Origin: Endomicrobium sp.
GTDB lineage: Bacteria; Elusimicrobiota; Endomicrobiia; Endomicrobiales; Endomicrobiaceae
Direction of reading: 5' to 3'
Length of the DNA stretch: 64,000 bases
Assembly (NCBI GenBank): GCA_031290575.1
Contig: JAITNH010000006.1
Location: 1-64,000 of the forward strand
Under the pieces are notes generated by a model. That model searched no databases. It saw only the letters and a program-made list of their open reading frames with translations, and was not told the DNA's origin. This document shows, in pieces, positions 5,442-58,983 of the stretch. The translations under genes were made by a program, and so were the position numbers. How positions within the stretch are numbered: position 1 is the stretch's first letter; the number at the start of each line of letters is the position of its first letter.

Positions 5442-6150
5442 ATATGATTCGAGTCGTTTTCCTGGCAAACCTTTAGCATTAGTGAATGACAAGTTTCTTG
5501 TTCAACACACTATAGAACGTATTGAAGAATGTAAAAAGATAGATTTCATGGCAGTTGCTACGGATGATGAACGCATTTATAATGCTGTTAAAAGACTTGG
5601 ATTTAATGTTTTTATGACTCCGAAATTCTGCAGAAGTGGTACAGAGAGAGTTGCTTTTGTAGCATCAAATTTTTTAAAAAAATATGAAATTTTTATTAAT
5701 GTTCAAGGTGATGAACCGTTGATAGATTCCAATCTTGTGGATAGGCTTGCAGTTTTACTGAAAAAATTTAATGCCTTAGAATGTATAACTGCTGCTTTTC
5801 CGATTACGGATATATCTGTGATAAAGAATCCAAATATTGTAAAGGTTGTTTTTGATAAGTATGGGTATGCTTTATATTTTTCAAGATCTGTGATTCCGTA
5901 TAATAGAGATAATGTAAAAATAAAATATTATAAACATATGGGAATATATGGATATGGGAGAAAATTTTTGTTGAAATTTTCAAAAGGCAGAGTAACTATT
6001 TTAGAAAAGACTGAGAATCTTGAACAGTTAAGGATTTTAGAAAATGGTCAAAGGATGAAAGTTGTTGTTGCAAAATATGATTCTTTAGCTGTTGATGTTC
6101 CTGGGGATATTCTAAATATTGTACAATATTTAGAATATCCCCATAAATAA
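5413..6150 (+). CDS. kdsB: 3-deoxy-manno-octulosonate cytidylyltransferase (CMP-KDO synthetase)
   Basis: The 245-residue protein starts with the nucleotidyltransferase signature IIPSRYDSSRFPGKPL. It contains VQGDEPLI near residue 98 and HMGIYGYGRKFLLKF near 175, all typical of KdsB. It activates KDO with CTP for transfer to lipid A. Length matches the family (about 245-250 aa). The last 13 or so codons, the region equivalent to the family's VDxPxDLxxV ending, lie inside a perfect 40-bp palindrome. The residues there (VDVPGDILNIVQYLE) remain family-like. It overlaps rfaE1 at the start and is followed 8 bp later by kdsA. Confidence 0.95.
   Translation: MKVAVIIPSRYDSSRFPGKPLALVNDKFLVQHTIERIEECKKIDFMAVATDDERIYNAVKRLGFNVFMTPKFCRSGTERVAFVASNFLKKYEIFINVQGDEPLIDSNLVDRLAVLLKKFNALECITAAFPITDISVIKNPNIVKVVFDKYGYALYFSRSVIPYNRDNVKIKYYKHMGIYGYGRKFLLKFSKGRVTILEKTENLEQLRILENGQRMKVVVAKYDSLAVDVPGDILNIVQYLEYPHK
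6103..6142. repeat. 40-bp perfect palindrome spanning the 3' end of kdsB
   Basis: The sequence from 6103 (GGGGATATTCTAAATATT...) to 6142 (...AATATTTAGAATATCCCC) is its own reverse complement over all 40 bases, centred at 6122/6123. It could fold in RNA as an 18-bp stem with a 4-nt loop just before the kdsB stop codon, upstream of kdsA. It is not followed by a T-run, so it is not a classical terminator. Confidence 0.95.
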
Positions 6151-23041: not shown

Positions 23042-25657
23042 ATGGTTTCTGATGTGAAGATATTGAAAATTTTAGGCATGATTTTTGGTTCTCAAAAAGA
23101 AAGAGACATAAAAGTAATAAGACCGATAGTTACAAAAGTTAATGCTTTTGAATCTTCTGTTAAGCGACTTACAGATTGTGAATTAAAAAATAAAACTACT
23201 GAATTTAGAAATCGCCTCTCAAATGGAGAGGCATTGAACAATATTCTGCCCGAAGCTTTTGCATGTGTTAGAGAAGCGTCTGTAAGGACAATAGGGTTAA
23301 GGCATTTTGATGTGCAGTTGATAGGTGGGTATATTCTTCATCAAGGCAAAATTGCCGAAATGAAAACAGGCGAAGGAAAAACTTTAGTAGCTACGCTTGC
23401 AGCCTATCTTAATGCTTTGCCACAGAAAGGTGTACATATAATAACTGTAAATGATTATCTTGCAAAAAGAGATAAAGATTGGATGAGTAGAGTCTATGTA
23501 AAACTTGGGCTTACGGTTGGCAATGTTGGACACGAAACAAAAAATGATGGAAGAAAAGAGGCCTATAATTGTGATATAACTTATGTGACAAATAACGAGA
23601 TCGGATTCGATTATTTAAGAGATAACATGCTTATTTCAAAAAATGATAGAGTTCTACGTTCTTTAAACTATGCGATTATAGATGAAGTCGATTCAATTTT
23701 GATCGATGAAGCGAGAACTCCCCTTATTATTTCTGGTGCTGGTGAACGATCAAGTAATAAATATTATATTTCAAATAGAATAGAATCTATGCTTAAAGGC
23801 AGAAAAGTTACTGAAGGTGAAGAAATAAAATCAAAACATGATAATACTGATTTAGCAAAGGGTTACGATTATCTTATAGATGAAAAAAATCATTCAGTAA
23901 TTTTAACAGAAGAAGGTGTTCAAAAAGCTGAAAGAATACTGGGCATAAAAAATATTTATGATGATTTACAATCTGAATGGGTTCACCATATAACGCAAGC
24001 CATAAGGGCACATAATTTATATCGTAGAGATGTAGAGTATGTGGTAAAAGATAGTGAAGTTATAATTGTAGATGAGTTTACAGGAAGACTTGTGCCTGGA
24101 AGAAGATGGTCTGATGGCCTTCATCAAGCTGTTGAAGCAAAAGAAAATTTAAAAATTGCAGATGAAAATCGAACTCTTGCTACAATAACATTCCAAAATT
24201 TTTTTAGAATGTATAAAAAAATTTCAGGCATGACAGGTACGGCCTTAACTGAAACAGCAGAATTTTGGGAAATTTATAAACTTGGTGTTGTTGGAGTTCC
24301 AACAAATAATCCTATGATAAGAAAGGATTATTCTGATGTTATATATAGAACAGAAAAGGAAAAAGATAATGCAATAGTTAGTGAAATTGAATCTTTATGG
24401 AGAAAGTGTCGGCCCGTTCTCGTTGGCACAAGGTCAATAGAAAAATCGGAGAAGATTGCTACAATGCTTCGAAAAAGAGGCATTTCTCATCAAATATTGA
24501 ACGCAAAATACCATGCTCTTGAAGCACAAATTATTGCTGTTGCCGGAGTAAAAGGTGCTGTTACTATCGCTACAAATATGGCTGGCAGGGGTACTGATAT
24601 TGTTCTCGGTGCTGGTGATTTGATTCAAAATGAAGAAATTAAACAGCTTGGTGGTTTGCACATAATAGGTACAGAGAGGCATGAATCGCGAAGAATAGAT
24701 AACCAATTAAGAGGACGTGCCGGTAGACAGGGAGATCCTGGCTCTACGAGGTTTTTTTTGTCCATGGAGGATGAACTTATGCGTCTTTTTGGTTCTGATA
24801 GAATATCTGGAATGATGCAAAAACTTGGTTTGAAGGAAGGTGATGATATACAGCATCCCTGGATATCAAGAGCTGTTGAAGGCGCTCAAAAAAAAGTAGA
24901 AGGAATGAACTTTGATATAAGAAAGCAACTTATAAATTTTGATAATGTTATGAATAAACAAAGAGAAGCAGTTTATAGATTAAGAAATCAAATTCTTGAA
25001 AGTGAAGATGTTTCTGGTATAATTGAAAGTATGATAGATGAATCTATTGATGAAAAACTTTCTATATGGTCCACAGCAAAATATGTAGAAGCCTGGGATT
25101 GGATAAATATAGATGCATGGATGTCTAGAACTTTTGGTGTTGTATATAAAAAAGAAAATCTTGATAATATAAATTATTTGACCAAAGAATTTATTAAAAA
25201 AGATATTTATGAAAAAGTTATTGAAGCATATGAAAAAAGGAAAAATGTAATTGCTTCAGAATTAATCTATCATCTGCAAAAAATGGTACTTTTGCAGATG
25301 ATAGATTCTTCGTGGCACGATCATTTATACGAGCTTGATCAATTAAGACATGGTATTGGTCTTAGAGCTTATGCACAGAAAGATCCAAAAATCGAGTATC
25401 AAAAAGAGTCTTTTGTTTTATTTGAATCTATGATGAAAAGAATAAGAGAAAACGCTGTAGAGTATATATTTAAAATTAATGTTGATATAAAACCGCAAGG
25501 AATAATTTCTGATTTTGAAGAAACAAGTTTAAATCTTGAGAATAATAGTAATTGTAAAAATAGCCAATTAAAATTTAAAGATTTAAACAAAATAGGGAGA
25601 AATGATCTTTGTTTTTGTGGTAGTGGAAAAAAGTATAAAAAATGTTGTGGATTGTGA
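23042..25657 (+). CDS. secA: Preprotein translocase ATPase SecA
   Basis: The 871 residues include Walker A MKTGEGKT near 108, Walker B IIDEVDSILIDEARTPLI near 213, TFQNFFRMYKKISGMTGTA near 380 and GRAGRQGDPGSTRFFLS near 560. The C-terminal zinc site is RNDLCFCGSGKKYKKCCG. SecA pushes preproteins through SecYEG. All motor motifs are intact and length fits the family. The scaffold region contains a perfect 18-bp-arm inverted repeat (25264-25307). A second, low-complexity repeat lies at 24196-24224 over the conserved TFQNFFRMYKK codons. Confidence 0.97.
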   Translation: MVSDVKILKILGMIFGSQKERDIKVIRPIVTKVNAFESSVKRLTDCELKNKTTEFRNRLSNGEALNNILPEAFACVREASVRTIGLRHFDVQLIGGYILHQGKIAEMKTGEGKTLVATLAAYLNALPQKGVHIITVNDYLAKRDKDWMSRVYVKLGLTVGNVGHETKNDGRKEAYNCDITYVTNNEIGFDYLRDNMLISKNDRVLRSLNYAIIDEVDSILIDEARTPLIISGAGERSSNKYYISNRIESMLKGRKVTEGEEIKSKHDNTDLAKGYDYLIDEKNHSVILTEEGVQKAERILGIKNIYDDLQSEWVHHITQAIRAHNLYRRDVEYVVKDSEVIIVDEFTGRLVPGRRWSDGLHQAVEAKENLKIADENRTLATITFQNFFRMYKKISGMTGTALTETAEFWEIYKLGVVGVPTNNPMIRKDYSDVIYRTEKEKDNAIVSEIESLWRKCRPVLVGTRSIEKSEKIATMLRKRGISHQILNAKYHALEAQIIAVAGVKGAVTIATNMAGRGTDIVLGAGDLIQNEEIKQLGGLHIIGTERHESRRIDNQLRGRAGRQGDPGSTRFFLSMEDELMRLFGSDRISGMMQKLGLKEGDDIQHPWISRAVEGAQKKVEGMNFDIRKQLINFDNVMNKQREAVYRLRNQILESEDVSGIIESMIDESIDEKLSIWSTAKYVEAWDWINIDAWMSRTFGVVYKKENLDNINYLTKEFIKKDIYEKVIEAYEKRKNVIASELIYHLQKMVLLQMIDSSWHDHLYELDQLRHGIGLRAYAQKDPKIEYQKESFVLFESMMKRIRENAVEYIFKINVDIKPQGIISDFEETSLNLENNSNCKNSQLKFKDLNKIGRNDLCFCGSGKKYKKCCGL
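25264..25307. repeat. Inverted repeat with 18-bp perfect arms inside secA
   Basis: Arm AATCTATCATCTGCAAAA (25264-25281) and its exact reverse complement (25290-25307) flank an 8-nt loop, AATGGTAC. The segment encodes LIYHLQKMVLLQMIDSSW, which aligns with the SecA family without a gap, so the repeat is not an inserted element. Confidence 0.93.
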
Positions 25658-27427: not shown

Positions 27428-28529
27428 ATGCTTGAGCAACAAAAAGAAAGAATAAGTGCTTTAAGGAGATCTCTTTGATCTAGACTCTAAAATAAATAGA
27501 ATCAATGAGCTTGAAGCTGAAATTTTAACCATAAATTTTTGGAATAATCAAATAACGGCTAAAAAACTTGTATGTGAACTTGAAGGGCTCAAAAGTGTGT
27601 ATGGTTTATGGAACGAGATGAATGTACAAGTTCAAGATTTAATTGATTTAAAAGATCTTGCTGCCAGTGAAAATGATGATAATATTCTGAATGATGTTAA
27701 GTATGATAGCAAGAAACTTGAAAAAAAACTATTTGCTTTTGAGAATCAAATTAAATTTAGCAACCAACATGATAAAAATAACGCGATCATTTCTATACAC
27801 GCTGGAGCTGGTGGTGTGGAATCATGTGATTGGGTAAAAATGTTAGTAAGAATGTACTCAATGTGGGTTGAAAACAAGGGTTTTGAGATAGAAGTTGTTG
27901 ACAGTTTTGATGGCGAAGGATCAGGAATTAAAAACATAACAATGATGATAAAAGGTAAGTATGCTTACGGGTTTTTACAGTCGGAAATAGGAATTCATAG
28001 GTTGGTTAGAGTCTCTCCGTTTGATTCAAACAAAAGAAGACATACATCTTTTGCTTCAGTTGATGTTATTCCAGAAGTTGATGATAGTATTAATATAGCG
28101 ATTGGAAACAAGGATATAAGAATAGATACTTATAGAGCTTCAGGTGCCGGCGGACAGCATATTAATAAAACTGATTCTGCTGTAAGGATCACACATTTTG
28201 CAACGGGAATAGTAGTACAGTCACAAAATGATCGTTCTCAAATAAAAAATAGAATAACAGCTATGAAACTTTTGAAAGCTAAACTTTATAAATTTGAACA
28301 CGAAAAACGTAGTGCTTCTTGTGAAAAACGTTATGCTGAGAAAGATTTTATAGAATGGGGTAATCAAATACGTTCCTATGTATTCATGCCTTATCAACTT
28401 GTAAAAGATCATAGAACAGGGCATGAAACATCGATGGTTGATTTGATTATGGAAGGAGAAATCGATTGCTTTATGAATGCATATATGTCTTATAAATTAA
28501 TGAGGAGAAATGATTGCAAAAAAAAATGA
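27428..28529 (+). CDS. prfB: Peptide chain release factor 2, with programmed +1 frameshift
   Basis: The gene starts at the ATG at 27428 (16 codons ending CTT at 27473), meets an in-frame TGA at 27476-27478 and continues in the +1 frame from GAT at 27477 to the stop at 28527-28529. This gives about 366 residues. The release-factor motifs are all in the second frame: VRVSPFDSNKRRHTSF (the RF2-type SPF recognition motif) and GAGGQHINKTDSAVR (the GGQ peptidyl hydrolysis motif). RF2 terminates at UGA and UAA. The TGA lets RF2 control its own synthesis. AGGAG (27418-27422) serves as ribosome binding site. Confidence 0.96.
27464..27479 (+). promoter_or_regulatory. RF2 programmed +1 frameshift site
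   Basis: AGGAG (27464-27468), a 4-nt spacer and CTTTGAT reproduce the known prfB shift site: an internal Shine-Dalgarno-like sequence, slippery CTT and a TGA with weak context. The ribosome slips one base forward on CTT when RF2 is scarce. Confidence 0.93.
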
Positions 28530-29335: not shown

Positions 29336-30135
29336 AAGAGAAATTGAAAAAAGGTATTTATGTAATACCGAGTATTTTTACTTGCGGGAATATGTCCTGC
29401 GGTTATTTGTCTGTAATAGCATCAATTGATGGAGATTTTACAAAGTCAGCCTGGCTTCTTATGCTTGCTATGGCTTTTGATATTATGGATGGAAGAATCG
29501 CAAGGCTTACAAAAGCAACGAGTGAGTTTGGTGTTCAATTAGATTCTTTAAGTGATTTGATATCTTTTGGAGTAGCACCGTCGGTTATGATGTATCAACT
29601 TGTTTTAAATTCTATGGGTAAAATTGGTATATCAATTGCGGTGCTGTTTGTTTTGTGTAGTGCTTTGAGGCTTGCAAAGTTTAATGTTAAAGCTCAAGAT
29701 GGTATAGTACGTGTTTCTTTTAGTGGATTGCCTACACCTGCTTCTGCTGGACTTTTAATATCGTTTGTTTTAAGTTATGAATTGTTTTCTGCTGGCACAG
29801 CAGAATCTTTGACGTTTAAAACTATACCGATTTTAATGGATCATATGCCTGTTTTTTTTAAGATGATGCCTGTTGTAATGGTAATATTATCTTTGCTTAT
29901 GGTTTCAAATATTCCATATGCTTCGTTTAAAAAAATGAAACTATCAAAACCAAAAGCATTTAGGCTTTTGGTTTTGATAGTTTTGCTTGTTTTTCTTATA
30001 ATTGCATTTCCGCAGAATACTATTTTTATATTATACAGTTTATATATTCTTTCAGGAATACTTTTTATTGGAACAAAATATTATAGAATTTGTAAAATAA
30101 GAGTTAACTTAAAAGGAGACCACCGTAGTGATTGA
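29332..30135 (+). CDS. pssA: CDP-diacylglycerol--serine O-phosphatidyltransferase
   Basis: The 267-residue membrane protein has the CDP-alcohol phosphotransferase signature DGxxARxxxxxSxxGxxxDSxxD in MDGRIARLTKATSEFGVQLD, followed by SLSD, near residues 46-70. About eight hydrophobic segments are seen. It makes phosphatidylserine for Psd. It overlaps psd upstream and ndk downstream. An inverted repeat with perfect 20-bp arms lies near the C-terminus (29938-29983). The protein there still aligns with the family. Confidence 0.95.
   Translation: MKEKLKKGIYVIPSIFTCGNMSCGYLSVIASIDGDFTKSAWLLMLAMAFDIMDGRIARLTKATSEFGVQLDSLSDLISFGVAPSVMMYQLVLNSMGKIGISIAVLFVLCSALRLAKFNVKAQDGIVRVSFSGLPTPASAGLLISFVLSYELFSAGTAESLTFKTIPILMDHMPVFFKMMPVVMVILSLLMVSNIPYASFKKMKLSKPKAFRLLVLIVLLVFLIIAFPQNTIFILYSLYILSGILFIGTKYYRICKIRVNLKGDHRSD
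29938..29983. repeat. Inverted repeat with 20-bp perfect arms inside pssA
   Basis: AAACTATCAAAACCAAAAGC (29938-29957) and its exact reverse complement (29964-29983) flank the loop ATTTAG. It encodes KLSKPKAFRLLVLIVL, in register with other PssA proteins. In RNA it would be one of the most stable hairpins in the region. It is followed by TTGCTTG, not a T-run, and translation continues for about 50 codons. Confidence 0.94.
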
Positions 30136-33269: not shown

Positions 33270-34013
33270 GTGAAAAAAATTGCAATATTTATTCTTATTT
33301 ATCTTTGTTTTGATCTTTGTTTTGCTAGAAATATCTATCAAACACAGATAGATAATGGTGAAGAAAATTTTAAAAAAGGGAATTTCATTAAAACTATTGA
33401 AATCTATGAAAACCTTATACAGGTGGAAAAAGTAAACGATCCGTCTGTTTATTATAATCTTTCAAATGCATATTATAGATCTGGAAATTTAGGAAAAGCA
33501 ATTATTAACATAGAAAAAGCATCAAAACTTGTCAAAAATGATAAACAAACAAAAAATAATTCACAGTGTTTGCATGCTATCATTAATGAACATACGTGCC
33601 AGAAAATATCGAATTTTTTTGTGCGATGTTTTTTTATTAATAAAATAACGATAGTTTTATCGGTAGTTTTGATTTTATTTTTTGTTTTTCTGTTTTTATT
33701 TATAATTAAAAAACTTTTAATATTTAAAAAAATTATATTTTTATTAATTTGTTTTTTTATTGTTTGTATTTTTATTTTTAATTTTAAATGTTACGGTGAG
33801 ATCGTAATAAAAAAATGCCTGTTTTTTTCTACAACAAATGTTAGGGATGATTCTTCTTGGTTGTAGTAATTCTAAACTTCAAAAATTTCAGATGGAGAAA
33901 GTGTTTATATGACGAGTAAGGGCACCAATTGGGTTAATATAAAATTTACCTTAAAAACGAAAATTTTACAGGAATGGATAAGAGTAGTGATGGTAGGAAG
34001 TATAAATGAGTAA
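33270..34013 (+). pseudogene. TPR protein with BatE-like layout, broken by stop codons
   Basis: A GTG-started frame of 198 codons has a signal peptide, two TPR units (GEENFKKGNFIKTIEIYENL; VYYNLSNAYYRSGNLGKAI) and two hydrophobic segments, then stops at 33864-33866. In the same frame, two further stops fall at 33867-33869 and 33873-33875. The frame then reads on for about 45 codons, through SDGESVYMTSKGTNWVNIKF, to a final stop at 34011-34013. That tail looks like an SH3-type domain, which in BatE-like proteins follows the membrane segments (here after TTNVRDDSS). Three clustered in-frame stops inside an otherwise continuing frame indicate a degraded gene, though the truncated TPR-membrane part could still be made. 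Confidence 0.6.
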
Positions 34014-34584
34014 AGTAGCTATTTTTGGAGGATCTTTTGATCCTGTTCATCGAGCTCATATTCGAATTGCCAAACTTGCGTTAGAATCCTTTGATTTAAG
34101 ACAGTTAAATTTTGTCATAGCTTATGCTCCGCCTCATAAAATAAAACAATATGCATGTGTTGAAGATAGGATTTCGATGTTAAAATTTGCCATAGAGAAG
34201 CTTGATAAATCAGAAGTAAGTCTCTATGAAACTCAAAAACGAGAAACAGTATATTCCTATCAGACATTGGATTATTTTCAGAATTTATATCCTACAGATG
34301 AAATTTGTATGATTATAGGATCAGACTCTCTTTTGAGTTTACCTACTTGGGAAAATATAGACTACTTAGCAAGTAAGTATAGATTTATAGTTGCCAAAAG
34401 ATCTGGAATTGATATCAAAAAGGATACAAAATATTTAAATAAATGTATTTTTATAGATAAGGAAATAGAAAACACTTCTTCTACAGAAGTGAGAAAATTA
34501 ATAAAAGAAGATTTAAAAAAAGCAACTTTATTGCTTGATGAAAAAGTTTTTAATTATATTTCTCAAAAGAAGATATATCAATGA
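34006..34584 (+). CDS. nadD: Nicotinate-nucleotide adenylyltransferase
   Basis: The 192-residue nucleotidyltransferase has VAIFGGSFDPVHRAH (residues 4-18), MIIGSDSLLSLPTWEN near 104 and the C-terminal SSTEVRKLI. It makes deamido-NAD from NaMN and ATP. The start overlaps the last codons of the broken TPR gene. With nadK (38831) and the NMN-deamidase domain of CinA, the window holds several pyridine nucleotide steps. It overlaps yqeK by 4 bp. Confidence 0.95.
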   Translation: MSKVAIFGGSFDPVHRAHIRIAKLALESFDLRQLNFVIAYAPPHKIKQYACVEDRISMLKFAIEKLDKSEVSLYETQKRETVYSYQTLDYFQNLYPTDEICMIIGSDSLLSLPTWENIDYLASKYRFIVAKRSGIDIKKDTKYLNKCIFIDKEIENTSSTEVRKLIKEDLKKATLLLDEKVFNYISQKKIYQ

Positions 34585-35171
34585 ATCAAAATATTGAGAA
34601 ACAAATATTTGAATATTTATCACAGCATTTAAGTTCTAAAAAAGTTGAACATTCTTATAATGTTTCAATGCTTGCTGTAAAAATTGCTTTAAAAAATGAT
34701 ACAAATCTATTAAAGGCCAGAATAGCATCTCTTTTACATGATTGTGCGAAATTTATGTCTGATGAAGAACTTGTTAAGTTTTTTAGAGGACATCAATCTA
34801 TTAAGTACTTTAGAGAAATAGTTAATTTTTCACCACAGTTACTCCATTCTTTTGCTAGTGAAATTATTGCTAGAAAAAACTTCAAAATAAAAGATAGAGA
34901 TATTTTAAACGCAATAAAATATCATACTCTTGGAAGAGAGAATATGAGTGTTCTTGAAAAAATAGTTTTTGTTGCAGATTCAGTTTCTTTAGATAGACAT
35001 TGGAGGCGGAGTGCAGAAATTAAAAAATTGGCTAAAAACAGTTTAAATGTAGCTTTTTTTGAAGTGCTCAAAGAAAAAATAGGGTATGTTGTTAAAAATG
35101 GCAATTGGTTGTGTCAACAAACTATATGCACATGGAATTGGTATGTTTCAAATATTAAAAAAAGTAGTTAA
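34581..35171 (+). CDS. yqeK: YqeK-type HD-domain phosphohydrolase
   Basis: The 196-residue HD-domain protein has KVEHSYNVSMLAVKIAL near residue 20, LLHDCAKF near 52 and a later KYHTLG near 112. These give the metal-binding histidine/aspartate set of the YqeK family. YqeK proteins hydrolyse diadenosine tetraphosphate symmetrically. The nadD-yqeK-LCP order is common, usually followed by rsfS, which is not seen here. The end overlaps the LCP gene start. Confidence 0.9.
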   Translation: MNQNIEKQIFEYLSQHLSSKKVEHSYNVSMLAVKIALKNDTNLLKARIASLLHDCAKFMSDEELVKFFRGHQSIKYFREIVNFSPQLLHSFASEIIARKNFKIKDRDILNAIKYHTLGRENMSVLEKIVFVADSVSLDRHWRRSAEIKKLAKNSLNVAFFEVLKEKIGYVVKNGNWLCQQTICTWNWYVSNIKKSS

Positions 35172-36227
35172 ATATCCAATCTTTATTGTAAATATTTTGG
35201 TAATAATTGTGTTGTTTTTATGTGTTTGTATTTATAAAAATGCTGATGTTTCAAGAAAAATTAAAATCAATAATGCTATCAGTTTTTCTGTGTTATTATA
35301 CGGTACTGAAAAAATGTTTCCTGGACGGCTTGATTTATATACGGCATTATATGATAAGAAAAATAATATATTGAAAGTGCTTTTTATTAATACTGATACT
35401 GTTGTTTTTAGGAACTGCAAAAAAGTAAAGAGTATAAAAATGCTTTTCAATGAATATTTAAAAAAAAAACAAATTCTGCAGCAAAGAATTTGTTTTTAGA
35501 TTTATATGAAATTATAGGAAATGTTGCCAAACCTGATTTTTATATCAGCATGAATTTTGAAACATTGGATTTTATAATGTGTCAAAATAAAAAAATTAAA
35601 TTTATGCTTTTAGAAAATGATTTTGAAAATAAAGATTTAGAGTTTTTGCATCGTATTAGAATAATAAAATGTGTTTTGAGTTTAATGCCACATCGTATAT
35701 TGAAAATTTTTCATAATTACAATTTATTTAATACAAATATTTCTAGAATATCGTTTATGGTATCTCTGTTAAGATTTAAAATTTTGCACCCTTTGTTTGT
35801 ATTTTGTGATTTGCCCGTTAAACATACAAATGCAAGAATAGAGCTTGATAAAGAAAATACAGAAACCTTTTTGAATGAAGTATACTATAATACAGATTTA
35901 AAAATAAATACAAATAATTTTCTTATTGATATTAGAAATGCTTCAAAAAAACCTCGTATGGCAGAAAAGGCAGCATGGCTTTTAAGAAGTAATAAATTTG
36001 ATGTTTTGGATTGGAACAGTTCTCCGATAGTTTATGATACTACTTTAATAAGGGATTATAAAGGTAATTTTAGGCAGGCATTAAAAATTGCAGAGCTTTT
36101 AAATGTCGGCGAAGTTATTGTTTCTTATGATGATAAAATTTATTCTGATATGACCGTGTTTGTTGGAAAAGATTGTGTAATATACGATGTTTTTGATAAA
36201 AATGATAATTTTAATGCAAAAAAATAA
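35143..36227 (+). pseudogene. LytR-CpsA-Psr family protein, split by a -1 frameshift at an A10 tract
   Basis: The first part (from MFQILKK at 35143) has a membrane segment near residue 10 and an LCP-like core (FSVLLYGTEKMFPGRLDLYT, ILKVLFINTDT). It ends at a stop at 35497-35499. The second part, in the -1 frame, continues the LCP domain (LYEIIGNVAKPDFYISMNFETLDFI begins after 35490, first 20 or so codons) and ends with a LytR_C domain (FLIDIRNASKKPRMAEKAA...VFVGKDCV). One extra A in the run at 35460-35469 would fuse the two frames into about 360 residues. LCP proteins transfer glycopolymers to the cell wall. The downstream frame stays open for 245 codons, so slippage might still give a whole product. 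Confidence 0.7.
35460..35497 (+). repeat. A10 tract followed by a perfect 13-bp hairpin at the LCP frameshift
   Basis: Ten A residues (35460-35469) run into an inverted repeat. The arm AAAAACAAATTCT (35465-35477), the loop GCAGCAA and the exact reverse complement (35485-35497) form it. The first-frame stop TAG (35497-35499) begins on the last base of the hairpin. The layout, an A-rich slip site followed by a stem-loop, resembles -1 frameshift signals such as that of E. coli dnaX. Confidence 0.85.
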
Positions 36228-36410
36228 CAATGATATACCAATTAAAATTGTAAAATAACAAAAAAAACAAAAGGATTCATCAATGGTATATAAATACAAA
36301 ATGGGTATTGAATTTTAAAAGGAGTTTTTCCTACTAATTAGTCGCAAATTGTACTAATGTCGTTTTGTATTTTTGCATCTTTATATTTAAAAAAATGTAA
36401 AATATTAAGA

Positions 36411-37067: not shown

Positions 37068-37524
37068 TTTTTTTTATTTTAATTCTTCTTTTTTGGCCAA
37101 TAGTTTCAATTTCAATATTCCAATTATTATAGTTCTCAAATCCTGATAGCCTATTTGCCCATTCAATAAGAGAAATATTATTGCTATAAAGATAGTCTTC
37201 AAGTGCCATTTCCCATATGTTTAAAGAGTCAAGTCTATACAGGTCCATATGAAAAAGTTTTAAATTATTTGCATCATACTCGTTTACAAGCATAAAACTT
37301 GAACTTCTTGCAAATCCTTTGTTGCCAAAAGCTTTAACAACTCCTTGTACGAAGGTTGTTTTGCCACTTCCTAAATCACCATTTAAAAAAACAATATCAC
37401 CACTTTTTAATACAGTTGCAAAATTCTTGCCCAAACTTCTGGTTTCTTCAGGGGTCTTAGTAAGGAAAATCTTTTTTTTAAAAATGTTTGTATCCAGAAT
37501 ATTTAATTTTTTGTTCTTTGCCAT
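37027..37524 (-). CDS. tsaE: tRNA threonylcarbamoyladenosine biosynthesis ATPase TsaE
   Basis: A small P-loop ATPase of 165 residues. FLNGDLGSGKTTFVQGV near residue 46 is Walker A, KTPEETRSLGKNFA near 24 is the family N-terminal motif and LFHMDLYRLDS near 93 is the Walker B-side motif. It works with TsaB and TsaD in t6A synthesis. It overlaps thiL by 47 bp at its start and tsaB by 41 bp at its end; no strong ribosome site is seen, so coupling is likely. Confidence 0.93.
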   Translation of the reverse strand: MAKNKKLNILDTNIFKKKIFLTKTPEETRSLGKNFATVLKSGDIVFLNGDLGSGKTTFVQGVVKAFGNKGFARSSSFMLVNEYDANNLKLFHMDLYRLDSLNIWEMALEDYLYSNNISLIEWANRLSGFENYNNWNIEIETIGQKRRIKIKKNENFSNRNFRKNI

Positions 37525-40102: not shown

Positions 40103-42919
40103 TTATCTACATATATAAAAATATTTGCAAACCTTGCAATTGATTCTATCGTTTTCTTCATTAAATTCAAAATACCCCTCTGAGGTTATCTCATCAAGTA
40201 GGATTTTAAGTATTTCAATGCATTTTTCATATATCTCCTTTTCTTTAGGAAACTGAACAATCTTTGCAGTTTTTATACTATAGATTCCGCATTCTATGAC
40301 ATTAAAACCTGTTTCTTTTTCAAATATATATTTATATAATGGCAGTTGCAAGGAGCTTAGTACTTTTTTTATATTATGTCTACTCAAATTATTAGTTAAT
40401 AAATCAAAATATTTTTTCTTAATAATATCATTATTTGTTTCGTTGGTTTTATAGTCAAATATCATGTAGTTTTTACTATCAGTATCTATTCTATCTATTC
40501 TATCTATTCTAGAGTCTAAATTATAAATTTCACCAGATCCTGTTTTGATATTTGAAGCGTATTTTTTTTCACAAGCATAGATATTTTTGTATGTTCTTTG
40601 TTTCTCATAATATAGAATGTTTTTCATTTTATATATTAAAATTTCTTTAATCATAAAAGAATCTTCTCTAAATTGAAAACATGTAGAACTATCAAAACTT
40701 TTCTTAAGTTTTTTTAAATAATCTTTTTCAAATTCTAAGGATTGAAGTTTTTTAATATCAAGCTTTTCATATAATGCATTTTTCAAAAAACTATGTATAA
40801 AATTTCCTATATCTTTATTTGAAATTTCTTGCCCTATTTCTGTATTTTCACTAAGTGATAAAACGTACATAAAGTAAAATTTTAATTTACAATTTAAATA
40901 GGTATCTATTTTGTCATATGTGTATGATATATTTTTAAGGTATTCGCGAATTTCTTTTGTTTTTTTATATTTCTGTTTGAATGAGTTTTTTATTGAAAAC
41001 TTAGGTAAAACAAATTTATTTATTTTTACAGCATTAATATTTTTGCTACTTAATTGTTTATTCCAGATAATAGATTCTATAAATCTGCTTCTTTCGTCTT
41101 TATCATTATCAGGATAAATAAGATTTAAATTTTTAGCACTTGCAATAAGCTTATTAAAGTGGTACTGTTGTATCTCGCATTCTTTTTTTACTATTTTAAT
41201 GCCTAAGGCATACATTATGTCTTTGGGTATAAGTGGATAGTCTTTTTTTATTGTTGGAATTGTTGAATCTTTCATACCAACAACAAAAACATTTTCAAAT
41301 GAAGGGTTTGCAGATTCTATTGACTCTAGGATCTGCAAACCCTTCAGAGGAAATCCTGATAATGCAATTCTTTTATTTTTAATAAGTTTTTTTAGAATAT
41401 TAAATATTGCTTTATTATTAAATTTTTCTTTTGACAATTCACCAAATTTTAGTTCTTTTGATAAAGATAATAAAATTTCCATTGCTTCAATGTTAAGCGG
41501 ATAAGTATCAATAACGCTTATAGAGTATATATTATCTAAGAGCTTAGATAATAAAATAGATAAACAAGAGAAACTTTCAATATTTTCCCAAGATATGAAG
41601 AATTTTTTAAAGATTTCATTTAATGTTTTTATGATTTTTTCGTAAGAAATGTATCCTAGGGTCTGTGTTATAGTAAGCTTCATTTCATTGATAAGTTTTT
41701 TATTGTTAATGATTTCATCAAATGAAATAAACATCTTGCCATTTAAATAACTTTTTGAATCTCGATACAAAGCATTTTCAATTTTATGAACAATTGTTTT
41801 TGATATTAAATTTTCACCAAAAAATTTCATTTTTTTCAAAAGCGGATTAGTCAAAATCTTTATAACATCTTTAGAATAATAATATTTACCTTTTCTTGAA
41901 AGTTGAGAGTCAATAACTGTATTAAACAATGAAAAAATTGTAGTTTTTTCAGCAGGATATCCTGCTGAAATATTATAGTTATCAGTGATTATAGAAATTT
42001 CAGATATTACAGATTTCAACATTTTTGAATCAGGGACAATAACAACTGTTTTATTCAAATTGGCCTTATCGTATGTTCTAATAAGATTTTTAAGTAGAGC
42101 TCCTTGGGATTGATCATCAAAAGAAGAATAGACATTTAATTTATATTCGTTTTTCTTGTTTTTTATTTCAGGAGAAGATTCTCCAAATGCGGAATATAAA
42201 TTTTCTAAAATTTCATACTCTTTTGGATTGCCATGAATAAATACAGTAAGTTTTCCAATATTGTAAAGTTTTTTAAAAATTTCCAGTTCAGTGTTGTGAA
42301 GATAGAATGGAGTTATAAGTATTATCTCATCAAAATATTCTGCAAACATCTCAACTTTCATAAGCGCTACTTTTAAGAAACTGTATCCTTTAGTGATTTT
42401 TAGTGATTTTTCTAAATTATTATGGAAAATTCTTCTTATTTTAAAAATGTTTTCTAGTAGATTCTTTATATCTTGAGGAATATCATAACCTATTTCTGCA
42501 TTTAACTTTATGTCTTTAAGTTTATCTTCAAAGATGTTTTCTAAATCAAGTTGTTCAATAAATGATAAAATTTCAAAAGACCACTCCATGAAAGATGCAA
42601 AAGAAAGACATCCATTTAAAAGCCCAGGTACATTATTTTTGATAATTTTAAATATTATGAATGCTGCTTCAATATCTGAAATTTTTATGAATTCTGTTTT
42701 CTCAAAAATAATATTTTCAATGAATTCATTATTCGTAAAAAAATCTGGAGAAAAAAAGGCTCTGCCTTTTTTTTGAGCAAGCTCATTTTTAAGAAATAAA
42801 AACACCCTTCGCTCATTACTGCTTATCAATGCAACTTTTTTATTCAATTTAAGGATGTAATCAGCAATGAAGCAGATTATGTTTTCATATATATCGACAT
42901 TTATTATCTTTCCAGGCAT
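40103..42919 (-). CDS. addB: AddB-like helicase-nuclease subunit with Fe-S nuclease domain
   Basis: This 938-residue protein partners the adjacent AddA. The C-terminal PD-(D/E)XK nuclease shows SRIDRIDRIDTDS then YMIFDYKTNE near residue 790. A four-cysteine cluster in AddB fashion comes from YLNCKLKFYFMY near 660 and the final NCKVCKYFYICR. The N-terminal part is an inactivated helicase fold. The segment GFPLKGLQILESIESANPSFENVFVVGM matches AddB proteins (first 20 residues diagnostic). The complex resects double-strand breaks for RecA. The ATG at 42919 shares a base with the addA stop (TAATG) and has AAGGA upstream. The gene holds at least four perfect inverted repeats and a triple 9-bp repeat. 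Confidence 0.85.
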   Translation of the reverse strand: MPGKIINVDIYENIICFIADYILKLNKKVALISSNERRVFLFLKNELAQKKGRAFFSPDFFTNNEFIENIIFEKTEFIKISDIEAAFIIFKIIKNNVPGLLNGCLSFASFMEWSFEILSFIEQLDLENIFEDKLKDIKLNAEIGYDIPQDIKNLLENIFKIRRIFHNNLEKSLKITKGYSFLKVALMKVEMFAEYFDEIILITPFYLHNTELEIFKKLYNIGKLTVFIHGNPKEYEILENLYSAFGESSPEIKNKKNEYKLNVYSSFDDQSQGALLKNLIRTYDKANLNKTVVIVPDSKMLKSVISEISIITDNYNISAGYPAEKTTIFSLFNTVIDSQLSRKGKYYYSKDVIKILTNPLLKKMKFFGENLISKTIVHKIENALYRDSKSYLNGKMFISFDEIINNKKLINEMKLTITQTLGYISYEKIIKTLNEIFKKFFISWENIESFSCLSILLSKLLDNIYSISVIDTYPLNIEAMEILLSLSKELKFGELSKEKFNNKAIFNILKKLIKNKRIALSGFPLKGLQILESIESANPSFENVFVVGMKDSTIPTIKKDYPLIPKDIMYALGIKIVKKECEIQQYHFNKLIASAKNLNLIYPDNDKDERSRFIESIIWNKQLSSKNINAVKINKFVLPKFSIKNSFKQKYKKTKEIREYLKNISYTYDKIDTYLNCKLKFYFMYVLSLSENTEIGQEISNKDIGNFIHSFLKNALYEKLDIKKLQSLEFEKDYLKKLKKSFDSSTCFQFREDSFMIKEILIYKMKNILYYEKQRTYKNIYACEKKYASNIKTGSGEIYNLDSRIDRIDRIDTDSKNYMIFDYKTNETNNDIIKKKYFDLLTNNLSRHNIKKVLSSLQLPLYKYIFEKETGFNVIECGIYSIKTAKIVQFPKEKEIYEKCIEILKILLDEITSEGYFEFNEENDRINCKVCKYFYICR
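40483..40509 (-). repeat. Three tandem 9-bp units in the addB nuclease motif
   Basis: TATCTATTC occurs three times in a row on the plus strand, encoding RID-RID-RID on the minus strand. The family motif normally reads IDRID, so one extra unit appears to have been added next to the nuclease aspartate. Confidence 0.85.
41300..41346. repeat. Inverted repeat with 16-bp perfect arms inside addB
   Basis: TGAAGGGTTTGCAGAT (41300-41315) and its exact reverse complement (41331-41346) flank a 15-nt loop. It encodes KGLQILESIESANPSF, which aligns with AddB proteins without a gap. Confidence 0.93.
41530..41553. repeat. Inverted repeat with 11-bp arms inside addB
   Basis: TATTATCTAAG (41530-41540), AG, then CTTAGATAATA (41543-41553). 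The total length of 24 bp equals that of the palindrome at 41947-41970. Confidence 0.85.
41947..41970. repeat. 24-bp perfect palindrome inside addB
   Basis: TTTCAGCAGGAT followed directly by ATCCTGCTGAAA, with no loop. It encodes ISAGYPAEKT on the minus strand. The mixed composition makes a chance origin unlikely. Confidence 0.92.
42751..42773. repeat. Inverted repeat with 10-bp arms inside addB
   Basis: AAAAAAAGGC, TCT, GCCTTTTTTT on the plus strand. It looks like an intrinsic terminator in either direction but lies about 50 codons into addB. It is weaker evidence than the other repeats because of its A/T runs. Confidence 0.7.
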
Positions 42920-48033: not shown

Positions 48034-48071
48034 ATAATTTTTATAATCGGTGCCTTGATTATAAAAATTAT
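48034..48071. repeat. Inverted repeat with 15-bp perfect arms, intergenic
   Basis: ATAATTTTTATAATC (48034-48048), loop GGTGCCTT, then the exact reverse complement (48057-48071). It lies about 270 bp upstream of tRNA-Thr and far from any coding end. No T-run follows directly. Confidence 0.88.
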
Positions 48072-51201: not shown

Positions 51202-52142
51202 GTCAGCAAAAAGTAAAAAAAATACTTTTAAATCAGATCAAAAGTGGCAGGTTAGCTCATGCTTATATTTTTGCAGGTCAGGAAGGTGTTGGCAAACGCC
51301 TTCTAGCTATTGAGCTTGCAAAAATTCTTAATTGTGCTGCAAATGATTCTTACGGAATTTATATAAATGCTTGCGGGAAATGTTTTTCATGTGAAAAAAT
51401 AGCTAAAAACCTTCATCCTGATTTGCACTTCATAGATTTTGCCAAACAAGCTATGCTTGAAGAAGATGATTTGGGAAAGCAAAAGGTATTAAAAATCGAA
51501 ACAATAAGGTATATGCAAAAAGAAATTGCAACAAAAATATATGAAGGCAGATGGAAAATTTTTATTTTAGAACCTGCTGAAAAAATGAGCATTGTAGCTG
51601 CAAACTCGCTTCTTAAAATAATTGAAGAGCCTCATGAGAATACAATGATAGTTTTAATTGCACAACATACAGATACAGTACTAAGAACGATAGTTTCACG
51701 TTCACAGACACTTTTTTTCCAGCCTTTGAAACATAATGAAATATCAACTTGGCTCATGTTAAATCATTCGTTGGATGCTACAAAAGCACACGAGATAGCT
51801 GGGTTGAGTGATGGATCTTTTTCAATTGCAAAAAAATTTGTTGACGAAAAAGTAAGAGATAATACTTCTTTTTGGTATGAATTTAAAAACAAAGATTTTT
51901 GGATTTCTGATATTTTAGAATTTTCAAAAAATGTTGCGAAGGATGGTTCTTTGAAATCTATTGATAGGATGATAGCTGAGGCAAAAGAAGATTTTAGAAG
52001 AACTCCTGAAATAATTGCCCCGATGCTTGATTTATTAAATGATGCAAGAGCACTACTTCTTCAAAACATAAGCCCTCAGACAGTTTTAGATAATTTATTT
52101 TTTGATCTGTTGGATCTGAAAAAAGCATTTGCAATATTATAA
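51183..52142 (+). CDS. holB: DNA polymerase III delta' subunit
   Basis: The 319-residue AAA+ protein has ILGQQKVKKILLNQIKSGRLAHAYIF at the start (first 20 residues diagnostic), P-loop AGQEGVGKR near residue 31, zinc cysteines CGKCFSCEKI near 60 and the sensor 1 SRSQTLFF near 175. It is part of the clamp loader with DnaX (57592). Many delta' proteins have a degenerate P-loop; here it is fairly intact, but no arginine-finger argument can be made for ATPase activity. It follows tmk by overlap and precedes ricT. Confidence 0.92.
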   Translation: MFENILGQQKVKKILLNQIKSGRLAHAYIFAGQEGVGKRLLAIELAKILNCAANDSYGIYINACGKCFSCEKIAKNLHPDLHFIDFAKQAMLEEDDLGKQKVLKIETIRYMQKEIATKIYEGRWKIFILEPAEKMSIVAANSLLKIIEEPHENTMIVLIAQHTDTVLRTIVSRSQTLFFQPLKHNEISTWLMLNHSLDATKAHEIAGLSDGSFSIAKKFVDEKVRDNTSFWYEFKNKDFWISDILEFSKNVAKDGSLKSIDRMIAEAKEDFRRTPEIIAPMLDLLNDARALLLQNISPQTVLDNLFFDLLDLKKAFAIL

Positions 52143-57591: not shown

Positions 57592-58983
57592 ATGTCATAT
57601 ATAGTCTTTGCCAGAAAATTTAGGCCTAAAAATTTTAATGAAATTGTAGGACAGGAGCATATTTCATTAACTCTTAAAAATGCGATTTCTAAAAATCGTA
57701 TTGCGCATGCTTATCTGTTCAGTGGCCCCAAAGGTTGTGGTAAAACTACTATGGCAAGAATTTTTGCCAAATCTTTAAATTGTAAAAACGGCCCTACAGT
57801 GGAGTCTTGTGGAGTATGTGAAAATTGTCTAAATATTTCTAAAAGTTCGAGCATCGATGTTTTAGAAATTGATGGGGCGTCAAATAATGGTATAGATGAA
57901 ATAAGGGCTTTAAGGGAAAATATAAAATTTTCGAGTGTTAATTCAAAATATAAAATCTATATTATAGATGAAGCTCATCAAATAACTATTCAGGCTTTTA
58001 ACGCACTGTTAAAAACACTTGAAGAGCCTCCGGAGCATGTTGTTTTTATTATGGCTACAACTGAGCAACACAAAATTCCCGTTACTATTCTTTCAAGATG
58101 TCAACGATATAGATTTAGACCTATATCAAATGCTGAAATATCTATAGCGATAAAAAATATTGGAATAAAAGAGGGCTTTGAAATAGATGACGATGCTTTG
58201 AATATTATTGCCATATTTTCAGGTGGTTCTATGAGAGACGCTTTAAATCTTTTAGATCAGGCAGTTTCTTTTAGCGATAATAAAGTGACCGGTGAACAGA
58301 TGAGGGATTTACTTGGGCTTCTTCCAAAGGAAATTATAGCTTCAGTTACAGAGAATATTGCAAAAGGTGATATTCATGTAATTTTAAAAATTGTTAAAGA
58401 AATTACGGAGAAAGGGTATAATATTTTACAGTTTGCAAGAGATTTAAGAGATCATTTAAGGCAAATTATGATTTATTCAATAAATCCTGCAATATACGAA
58501 ATATCCTCGGAAGATAGAAAACTTTTCGATATTCAGAAAAACTTATTTACGATCTCACGCCATGTACGGATAAACAATCTTTTATCAAAAGCTCTTGAGA
58601 AAATGCATTGGAATGATCAACCAAGGATTGTGCTTGAAATGTATCTTCTTAAGATGTCAGAGCAGTATTACGATGTTGGGGAGCTTATAAATAAAATTAC
58701 TGATTTAGAGAAAAGTGTAAAGATAAAAAATATTGATAATTTACAATCTTCTTCTGAAAATGAGAATCAAACGTTAATAGATAGTAAATCTGATTTTTTT
58801 GATAAAGTTTTAGTTCCTGTGGGTGCTGATAAGAGTTTAATTAAAGATACTTTGCCTTTAAGTAATGAAACTATGAAGGAAGATAGTAATTTTCAGACTA
58901 TTGAAAAGTCAACAAAAACGGTAGTACCTAAGCATATAGAAGAAATAGCAAAAAAATTTCGTTCTGTTGCTAGAAAATTGTAG
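57592..58983 (+). CDS. dnaX: DNA polymerase III subunits gamma/tau
   Basis: The 463-residue AAA+ clamp-loader ATPase has RPKNFNEIVGQEHI near residue 11, P-loop FSGPKGCGKTTMARIFAK near 43, zinc cysteines in CGVCENC near 78, Walker B IIDEAHQIT near 123 and sensor 1 SRCQRYRF near 172. The tail after about residue 370 is short and hydrophilic, so tau-specific domains for polymerase and DnaB contact are reduced. No A-rich frameshift site with a hairpin like that of E. coli dnaX was found upstream of the end. Confidence 0.95.
   Translation: MSYIVFARKFRPKNFNEIVGQEHISLTLKNAISKNRIAHAYLFSGPKGCGKTTMARIFAKSLNCKNGPTVESCGVCENCLNISKSSSIDVLEIDGASNNGIDEIRALRENIKFSSVNSKYKIYIIDEAHQITIQAFNALLKTLEEPPEHVVFIMATTEQHKIPVTILSRCQRYRFRPISNAEISIAIKNIGIKEGFEIDDDALNIIAIFSGGSMRDALNLLDQAVSFSDNKVTGEQMRDLLGLLPKEIIASVTENIAKGDIHVILKIVKEITEKGYNILQFARDLRDHLRQIMIYSINPAIYEISSEDRKLFDIQKNLFTISRHVRINNLLSKALEKMHWNDQPRIVLEMYLLKMSEQYYDVGELINKITDLEKSVKIKNIDNLQSSSENENQTLIDSKSDFFDKVLVPVGADKSLIKDTLPLSNETMKEDSNFQTIEKSTKTVVPKHIEEIAKKFRSVARKL

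Follow-up and report, generated by a model that had tools for sequence, protein, structure and literature searches.

The LCP/LytR_C gene in the 64,000-nucleotide stretch analysed here (the window; contig C6, positions 1–64000) is broken into two reading frames at a run of ten A residues. The window comes from a draft genome of 409 kb that is 34% complete and belongs to an Endomicrobiellum-type termite symbiont; nearest to it are MAGs that bear the names Endomicrobium or Candidatus Endomicrobiellum and represent symbionts of termite-gut flagellates. The split gene, a cell-envelope gene of the LCP family, is best explained, with a probability of roughly 58%, as a recent loss-of-function allele with a single lesion in an AT-rich, genome-reducing symbiont, in which the perfect hairpin at the break would be a product of template switching and not a recoding signal. 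This reading draws on intact orthologues in related genomes, repeated loss of the gene elsewhere in the genus, an indel hotspot at the same site, an excess of perfect hairpins in this genome and the overwriting of hairpin arms in other genes.

The split gene spans 35143–36227 on the + strand, with its two frames offset by −1. Its 5′ half (35143–35469, +), read in the first frame, encodes a membrane helix and the first part of the LCP fold, and aligns to residues 1–109 of intact relatives. The A10 tract occupies 35460–35469 (+), precisely at the frame change. It is overlapped by an inverted repeat (35465–35497, +) with arms at 35465–35477 and 35485–35497 that are complementary at 13 of 13 positions around a 7-nt loop; the 5′ arm holds half of the A run. 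The RNA fold of this hairpin is −12.2 kcal/mol, compared to −4.1 for shuffled sequences (z = −3.95). The first-frame TAG stop (35497–35499, +) begins on the final base of the hairpin, while the 3′ half (35469–36227, +), in the −1 frame, has no internal stop up to 36227 and retains LytR_C at approximately 35925–36173 (PF13399, E 1.8e-6). Once the −1 offset is allowed, both halves align without gaps to intact homologues of about 365 aa and therefore represent one gene, not two; in the LCP alignment, the G000 sequence was taken with its offset as found and was left unmended. A reading of the sequence alone had described this arrangement—an A10 tract overlapping a hairpin with 13-bp arms where the frame changes, halves offset by −1, a stop starting on the hairpin's last base, and an open second frame with an intact LytR_C—and it was borne out in each of these respects. 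Because the break lies within the LCP core, at approximately residue 109 of 361, neither fragment would be expected to work alone. The A tract is the only lesion found in this genome's copy of the gene, with no further stop or frame change. A start of the gene at ATG 35086 was rejected, as this position lies inside yqeK; the true start is at about 35143 (MFQILKK...).

The assignment to the LCP (LytR-CpsA-Psr) family, also part of the earlier reading, is upheld by structure but not by sequence profile. The Pfam LCP model PF03816 matches neither this gene nor any of 15 relatives (0/15), and a sequence search of the PDB with the family profile gave no match. LytR_C, in contrast, is present in 15 of the 15 relatives scanned. 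For the intact relative L061 an AlphaFold model (mean pLDDT 74) was searched with Foldseek and retrieved only LCP structures at E < 0.001 (33 hits, with E values down to 1e-8). The predicted fold of the intact relative is thus clearly that of solved LCP proteins; the sequence of this part has diverged too far for Pfam.

In at least 26 genomes of the genus the LCP gene forms one open frame across the junction. The homologous A tract in intact relatives is usually A7, with lengths of A4–A9 seen, and no shift of frame is conserved there. Dead copies carrying several stops and frame changes are present in three genomes—G004 (L110), G034 (L111) and G041 (L112)—which occupy three separate places on a SecA tree, and several more genomes, some of them incomplete drafts, have no LCP copy. 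In two of these dead copies the frame changes at the homologous tract, which is A8 in G034 and A6 in G041 (intact close types are mostly A7). Since the same tract has changed length in two dead relatives, it is a repeated target of indels, within a gene prone to loss in this genus. Orthologues that are intact elsewhere and repeated independent loss are both features of a pseudogene; further inactivating lesions are absent here.

With the nearest LCP orthologue only about 60% identical, the loss of the frame cannot be dated, and dN/dS dating was dropped for a comparison of rates with SecA. Relative to SecA, the N-terminal half lies at +0.7 sd and the C-terminal half at +0.3 sd, like intact relatives, and highly conserved residues are kept at 11 of 12 positions in the first half and 54 of 61 in the second. 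As neither half is accelerated, the lesion is either recent or has been softened by residual product; in other words it is young or leaky. The lack of accelerated change is also what would be expected if a product were still made, and in this respect it is a counterpoint to loss of function. As a separate observation, among the 30 terminal branches of the SecA tree the one leading to this genome is the longest, suggesting faster evolution in its lineage.

No A/T run in the window besides the A10 tract reaches a length of 10, whereas dinucleotide shuffles predict about 13 runs of 10 or more. Long A/T runs are thus rarer in the window than expected and are avoided there, and for this reason the lone A10 deserves attention. 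Across a wider sample of the genome, comprising 264 of its 409 kb taken in stretches, A/T10 tracts occur inside ORFs only twice, the LCP tract being one of the two. The same 264 kb holds 140 orthologue-like genes, and LCP alone among them is frame-split, from which it follows that the genome is not broadly riddled with frameshifts. That the sole frame break coincides with one of two A/T10 tracts in ORFs is no coincidence. Runs of 8–9 G or C were also seen (for example C6:68004–68012 and C5:55363–55371); they lie outside long ORFs, in a genome of 30% GC.

The hairpin belongs to a class that is unusually abundant in this genome. Perfect inverted repeats with arms of at least 13 bp and loops of 3–20 nt number 15 in the 264 kb, compared to 0.67 expected under an order-2 model, and 12 of them lie in ORFs. 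The density of perfect hairpins in ORFs is 45/Mb here and 6/Mb in relatives, a difference of about sevenfold (p = 3e-5) in a count that is ORF-based and hence biased toward hairpins that keep the frame open. For the relatives, which were pooled and unevenly sampled, with G043 contributing about two thirds, the figure is 7 in-ORF hairpins per about 1,135 kb; the stretches sum to about 1,055 kb, giving a ratio of about 6.9 and leaving the conclusion unchanged. Besides the LCP hairpin, members of the set are found inside secA (25264–25307, +) and pssA (29938–29983, +), at the end of kdsB (6102–6143, +), and elsewhere in the window at 41300–41346 and 48034–48071. Others lie at C6:64766–64805, 83979–84037, 134466–134494 and 137673–137707, and at C5:7026–7065, 37148–37187 and 51550–51586. 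Arms across the set measure 13–23 bp, and the hairpins are mostly inside conserved genes.

Comparison with relatives suggests how these hairpins arose. Where a hairpin was compared across many relatives, these carry imperfect versions, and comparisons with a single reference reveal unperfected versions of most other in-ORF hairpins too. In secA, where the right arm is conserved, the left has been rewritten as its reverse complement, converting LMAQIQR-like residues to LIYHLQK. In kdsB (hairpin region 6102–6150) the right arm, copied from the left, has overwritten the ancestral stop, changing ...EKYL-stop to ...QYLEYPHK-stop and adding about five codons. The pssA hairpin is paired at 20 of 20 positions, compared to 14 of 20 at most in relatives. 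Replacement of one arm by the complement of the other is clear for secA and kdsB and probable for pssA, with which the data are consistent. Overwriting of this kind is read here as the signature of template switching at quasi-palindromes, and the genome apparently has unusually active template-switch mutagenesis.

Quasipalindrome-correction or template-switch mutations are known from E. coli (PMC7202029), from coding genes of yeast (PMC8604942) and from RNA hairpins (PMC8794818). As in those systems, an imperfect repeat of the relatives is perfect in one lineage, and clustered substitutions, confined to one arm, follow the reverse complement of its partner. The present case differs in being visible only through comparison of diverged species, and in a density within genes (45/Mb) that greatly exceeds the density in sister genomes. 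Coding palindromes in the mitochondria of Nematomorpha (PMC6649704) are likewise perfect inverted repeats in conserved protein-coding genes with both arms translated. Those repeats reach up to 284 bp, compared to arms of 13–23 bp in the bacterial genome described here, where the direction of copying is visible in some cases.

The search for repair genes gave no explanation of the excess. The large subunit of exonuclease VII and MutS, both present in most near-complete relatives, were not found in the 34%-complete draft; this absence means nothing, because the draft is so incomplete and because the G043 genes neighbouring that for exonuclease VII find no match at orthologue level in the 264 kb sampled. 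The SbcC nuclease is not recognisable in any of the 42 genomes of the genus searched, and for that reason it cannot explain a difference between lineages. A genus-wide lack of SbcC may, however, allow hairpins to persist throughout the genus.

Under the preferred reading of recent loss, the frame would have been lost by a one-base change of length in the slippage-prone A tract, as the gap-free alignment implies, and the hairpin would be a quasi-palindrome perfected by replication template switching, the process visible across the genome. Two residues inside the right arm are changed: F117, which is highly conserved, and Y118, which both alignments of intact relatives show as invariant. The right arm is therefore probably the recipient, seemingly copied from the A-rich left arm, since the Tyr replaced there does not vary among the intact relatives examined; both arms are somewhat unusual and the left also differs from relatives, so that which arm was copied is uncertain. 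An A/T-rich arm would lengthen or include the A run, and one event, or two closely linked events, could have produced run, hairpin and offset. How the events followed one another, what they did to the gene's function, and the action of template switching at LCP itself are inferred. Any full-length protein would come from unprogrammed slippage of RNA polymerase (or the ribosome) on the A10 tract. The sequence-only reading had offered recent loss through a repeat-forming mutation as its second choice, and this is now the best supported account: the tract has changed length in two dead relatives, and the hairpin fits the genome-wide pattern of template switching. The event that made the hairpin may also have caused the offset, by changing the length of the A run, or ordinary slippage may have done so separately.

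A bolder form of this account may be put forward tentatively, at below even odds. Here, abnormally active template switching would turn segments of conserved genes into perfect palindromes—altering parts of SecA and PssA and even erasing the stop of KdsB—and the lost LCP frame would be its direct product, such that palindrome formation drives gene loss during the reduction of the symbiont genome.

Slippage could also have kept the gene functional. In this model RNA polymerase stutters on the A10 tract, some transcripts gain one A, and enough full-length LCP is made for selection to retain it; we regard this as rather unlikely, although much of the locus is compatible with it. A single indel in an A/T run of about nine or more, in a gene that is otherwise intact and whose protein shows no acceleration, is the pattern that rescue by slippage would leave. 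The lone lesion sits precisely in the longest A run, A10 has sufficient length, the common type of slip (+1 A in the RNA) is the one required, the frames are free of decay, and both halves evolve at a normal rate. Transcription indels in Buchnera are chiefly insertions, which fall mostly in A/T runs, but the same genome-wide survey found no transcription error that restored a frame (PMC5574713), and it is for this reason that recent loss is ranked above maintained rescue. A review gives 12–50% corrected transcripts for frameshifted genes of insect endosymbionts (PMC5009743), and eight frameshifted genes of Blochmannia vafer are in the same state, with the same choice between loss and rescue left open by the authors (PMC3017870). 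On the other side, the genus repeatedly loses LCP, no related strain conserves the offset (the nearest LCP in the comparison being only 60% identical), and the change of an invariant Tyr carried by the hairpin hints at relaxed constraint.

The resemblance to the poly(A) frameshifts of Buchnera and Blochmannia that polymerase slippage impairs or rescues, as treated in PMC5009743 and PMC3017870, is close in several respects: an AT-rich, host-associated genome, a single indel in a long A run, and an otherwise conserved gene with no acceleration of rate. In the aphid symbiont the affected genes are also cell-wall genes. Unlike them, the present case concerns a termite-protist symbiont of another phylum; none of the relatives compared, the nearest with an LCP 60% identical, shares the offset; several have lost the gene altogether; and a perfect hairpin overlaps the tract.

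An error of sequencing or assembly, with the true tract in frame and the gene intact, is improbable. Homopolymers of ten are prone to error, this draft genome is 34% complete, and the gene is otherwise perfect. Against this, some 35 A/T9 tracts and a second A/T10 tract are found in ORFs of the sampled 264 kb that stay open, a single gene of the 140 orthologues is frame-split, and independent genomes with additional lesions also show a changed length of the homologous tract. Reversible phase variation, by which replication slippage on A10 would switch LCP on and off within the population, would suit a long homopolymer in a surface-related gene with all else intact, but it is very improbable given that relatives have no conserved long tract and that the dead copies among them carry irreversible extra lesions.

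Programmed −1 ribosomal frameshifting of the dnaX kind, which the sequence-only reading had invoked for the A run and its stem-loop, is hardly credible and is rejected because of geometry and lack of conservation. Here, as in dnaX, an A-rich slip site lies near a stem-loop; the A run makes a good one, and A10 permits slips on the heptamer A AAA AAA in the zero frame. A dnaX-type stimulator must sit a few bases downstream of the slip codons. The stem instead starts within the slip tract (arm 35465–35477, tract 35460–35469), leaving no spacer of 5–8 nt, and the footprint of a ribosome on these slip codons would cover the 5′ arm and already have opened it. The proposal that the hairpin acts as an element downstream of the slip site fails accordingly. 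No intact relative changes frame at the junction, all of them reading through it in a single frame, the hairpin belongs to a genome-wide class found in unshifted genes, and no dual product is expected. A true recoding site does occur in the same window, in prfB (27428–27600), where the classical +1 site CTTTGAT at 27473 is preceded by AGGAG. The dnaX gene of the window (57592–58983) ends after an A7 at 58950, and neither a long −1 extension nor a tau/gamma frameshift signal was seen there. An intrinsic terminator was considered for the hairpin and rejected, since 35000–36400 contains no terminator-like match and the stem is AT-rich. An Rfam scan of the window returned nothing beyond five tRNAs.

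The LCP lesion adds one more poly(A) frameshift to those of reduced AT-rich genomes. No such case in Elusimicrobiota turned up in the literature searched, and this one means that rescue by slippage could be tested in that phylum. The cluster of perfect hairpins within conserved genes suggests that templated mutation, beside substitutions and homopolymer slippage, rewrites proteins and breaks genes in a reducing symbiont. It also calls for caution, in that such hairpins should not be read as recoding or regulatory signals.

Upstream of LCP the gene order is nadD (34006–34584, +; PF01467), then a yqeK-type HD-domain gene (34581–35171, +; PF01966) that overlaps the start of LCP. Both are intact, and nadD has an intact orthologue in G043. 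Upstream of nadD, at 33270–34007 (+), a TPR/SH3 (BatE-like) gene is 43% identical to an intact 251-aa protein of G043 and is eroded, with three in-frame stops and a garbled C-terminal segment. In G043, genes of thiamine type (thiF/thiE/thiH/thiG-like, by reading of the sequence) lie just upstream; they are absent from the corresponding position here. The TPR/SH3 gene, of envelope type, is the second eroding gene of the LCP cluster, its C-terminal reading frame having been lost, and its decay speaks for the reading of LCP as a lost gene.
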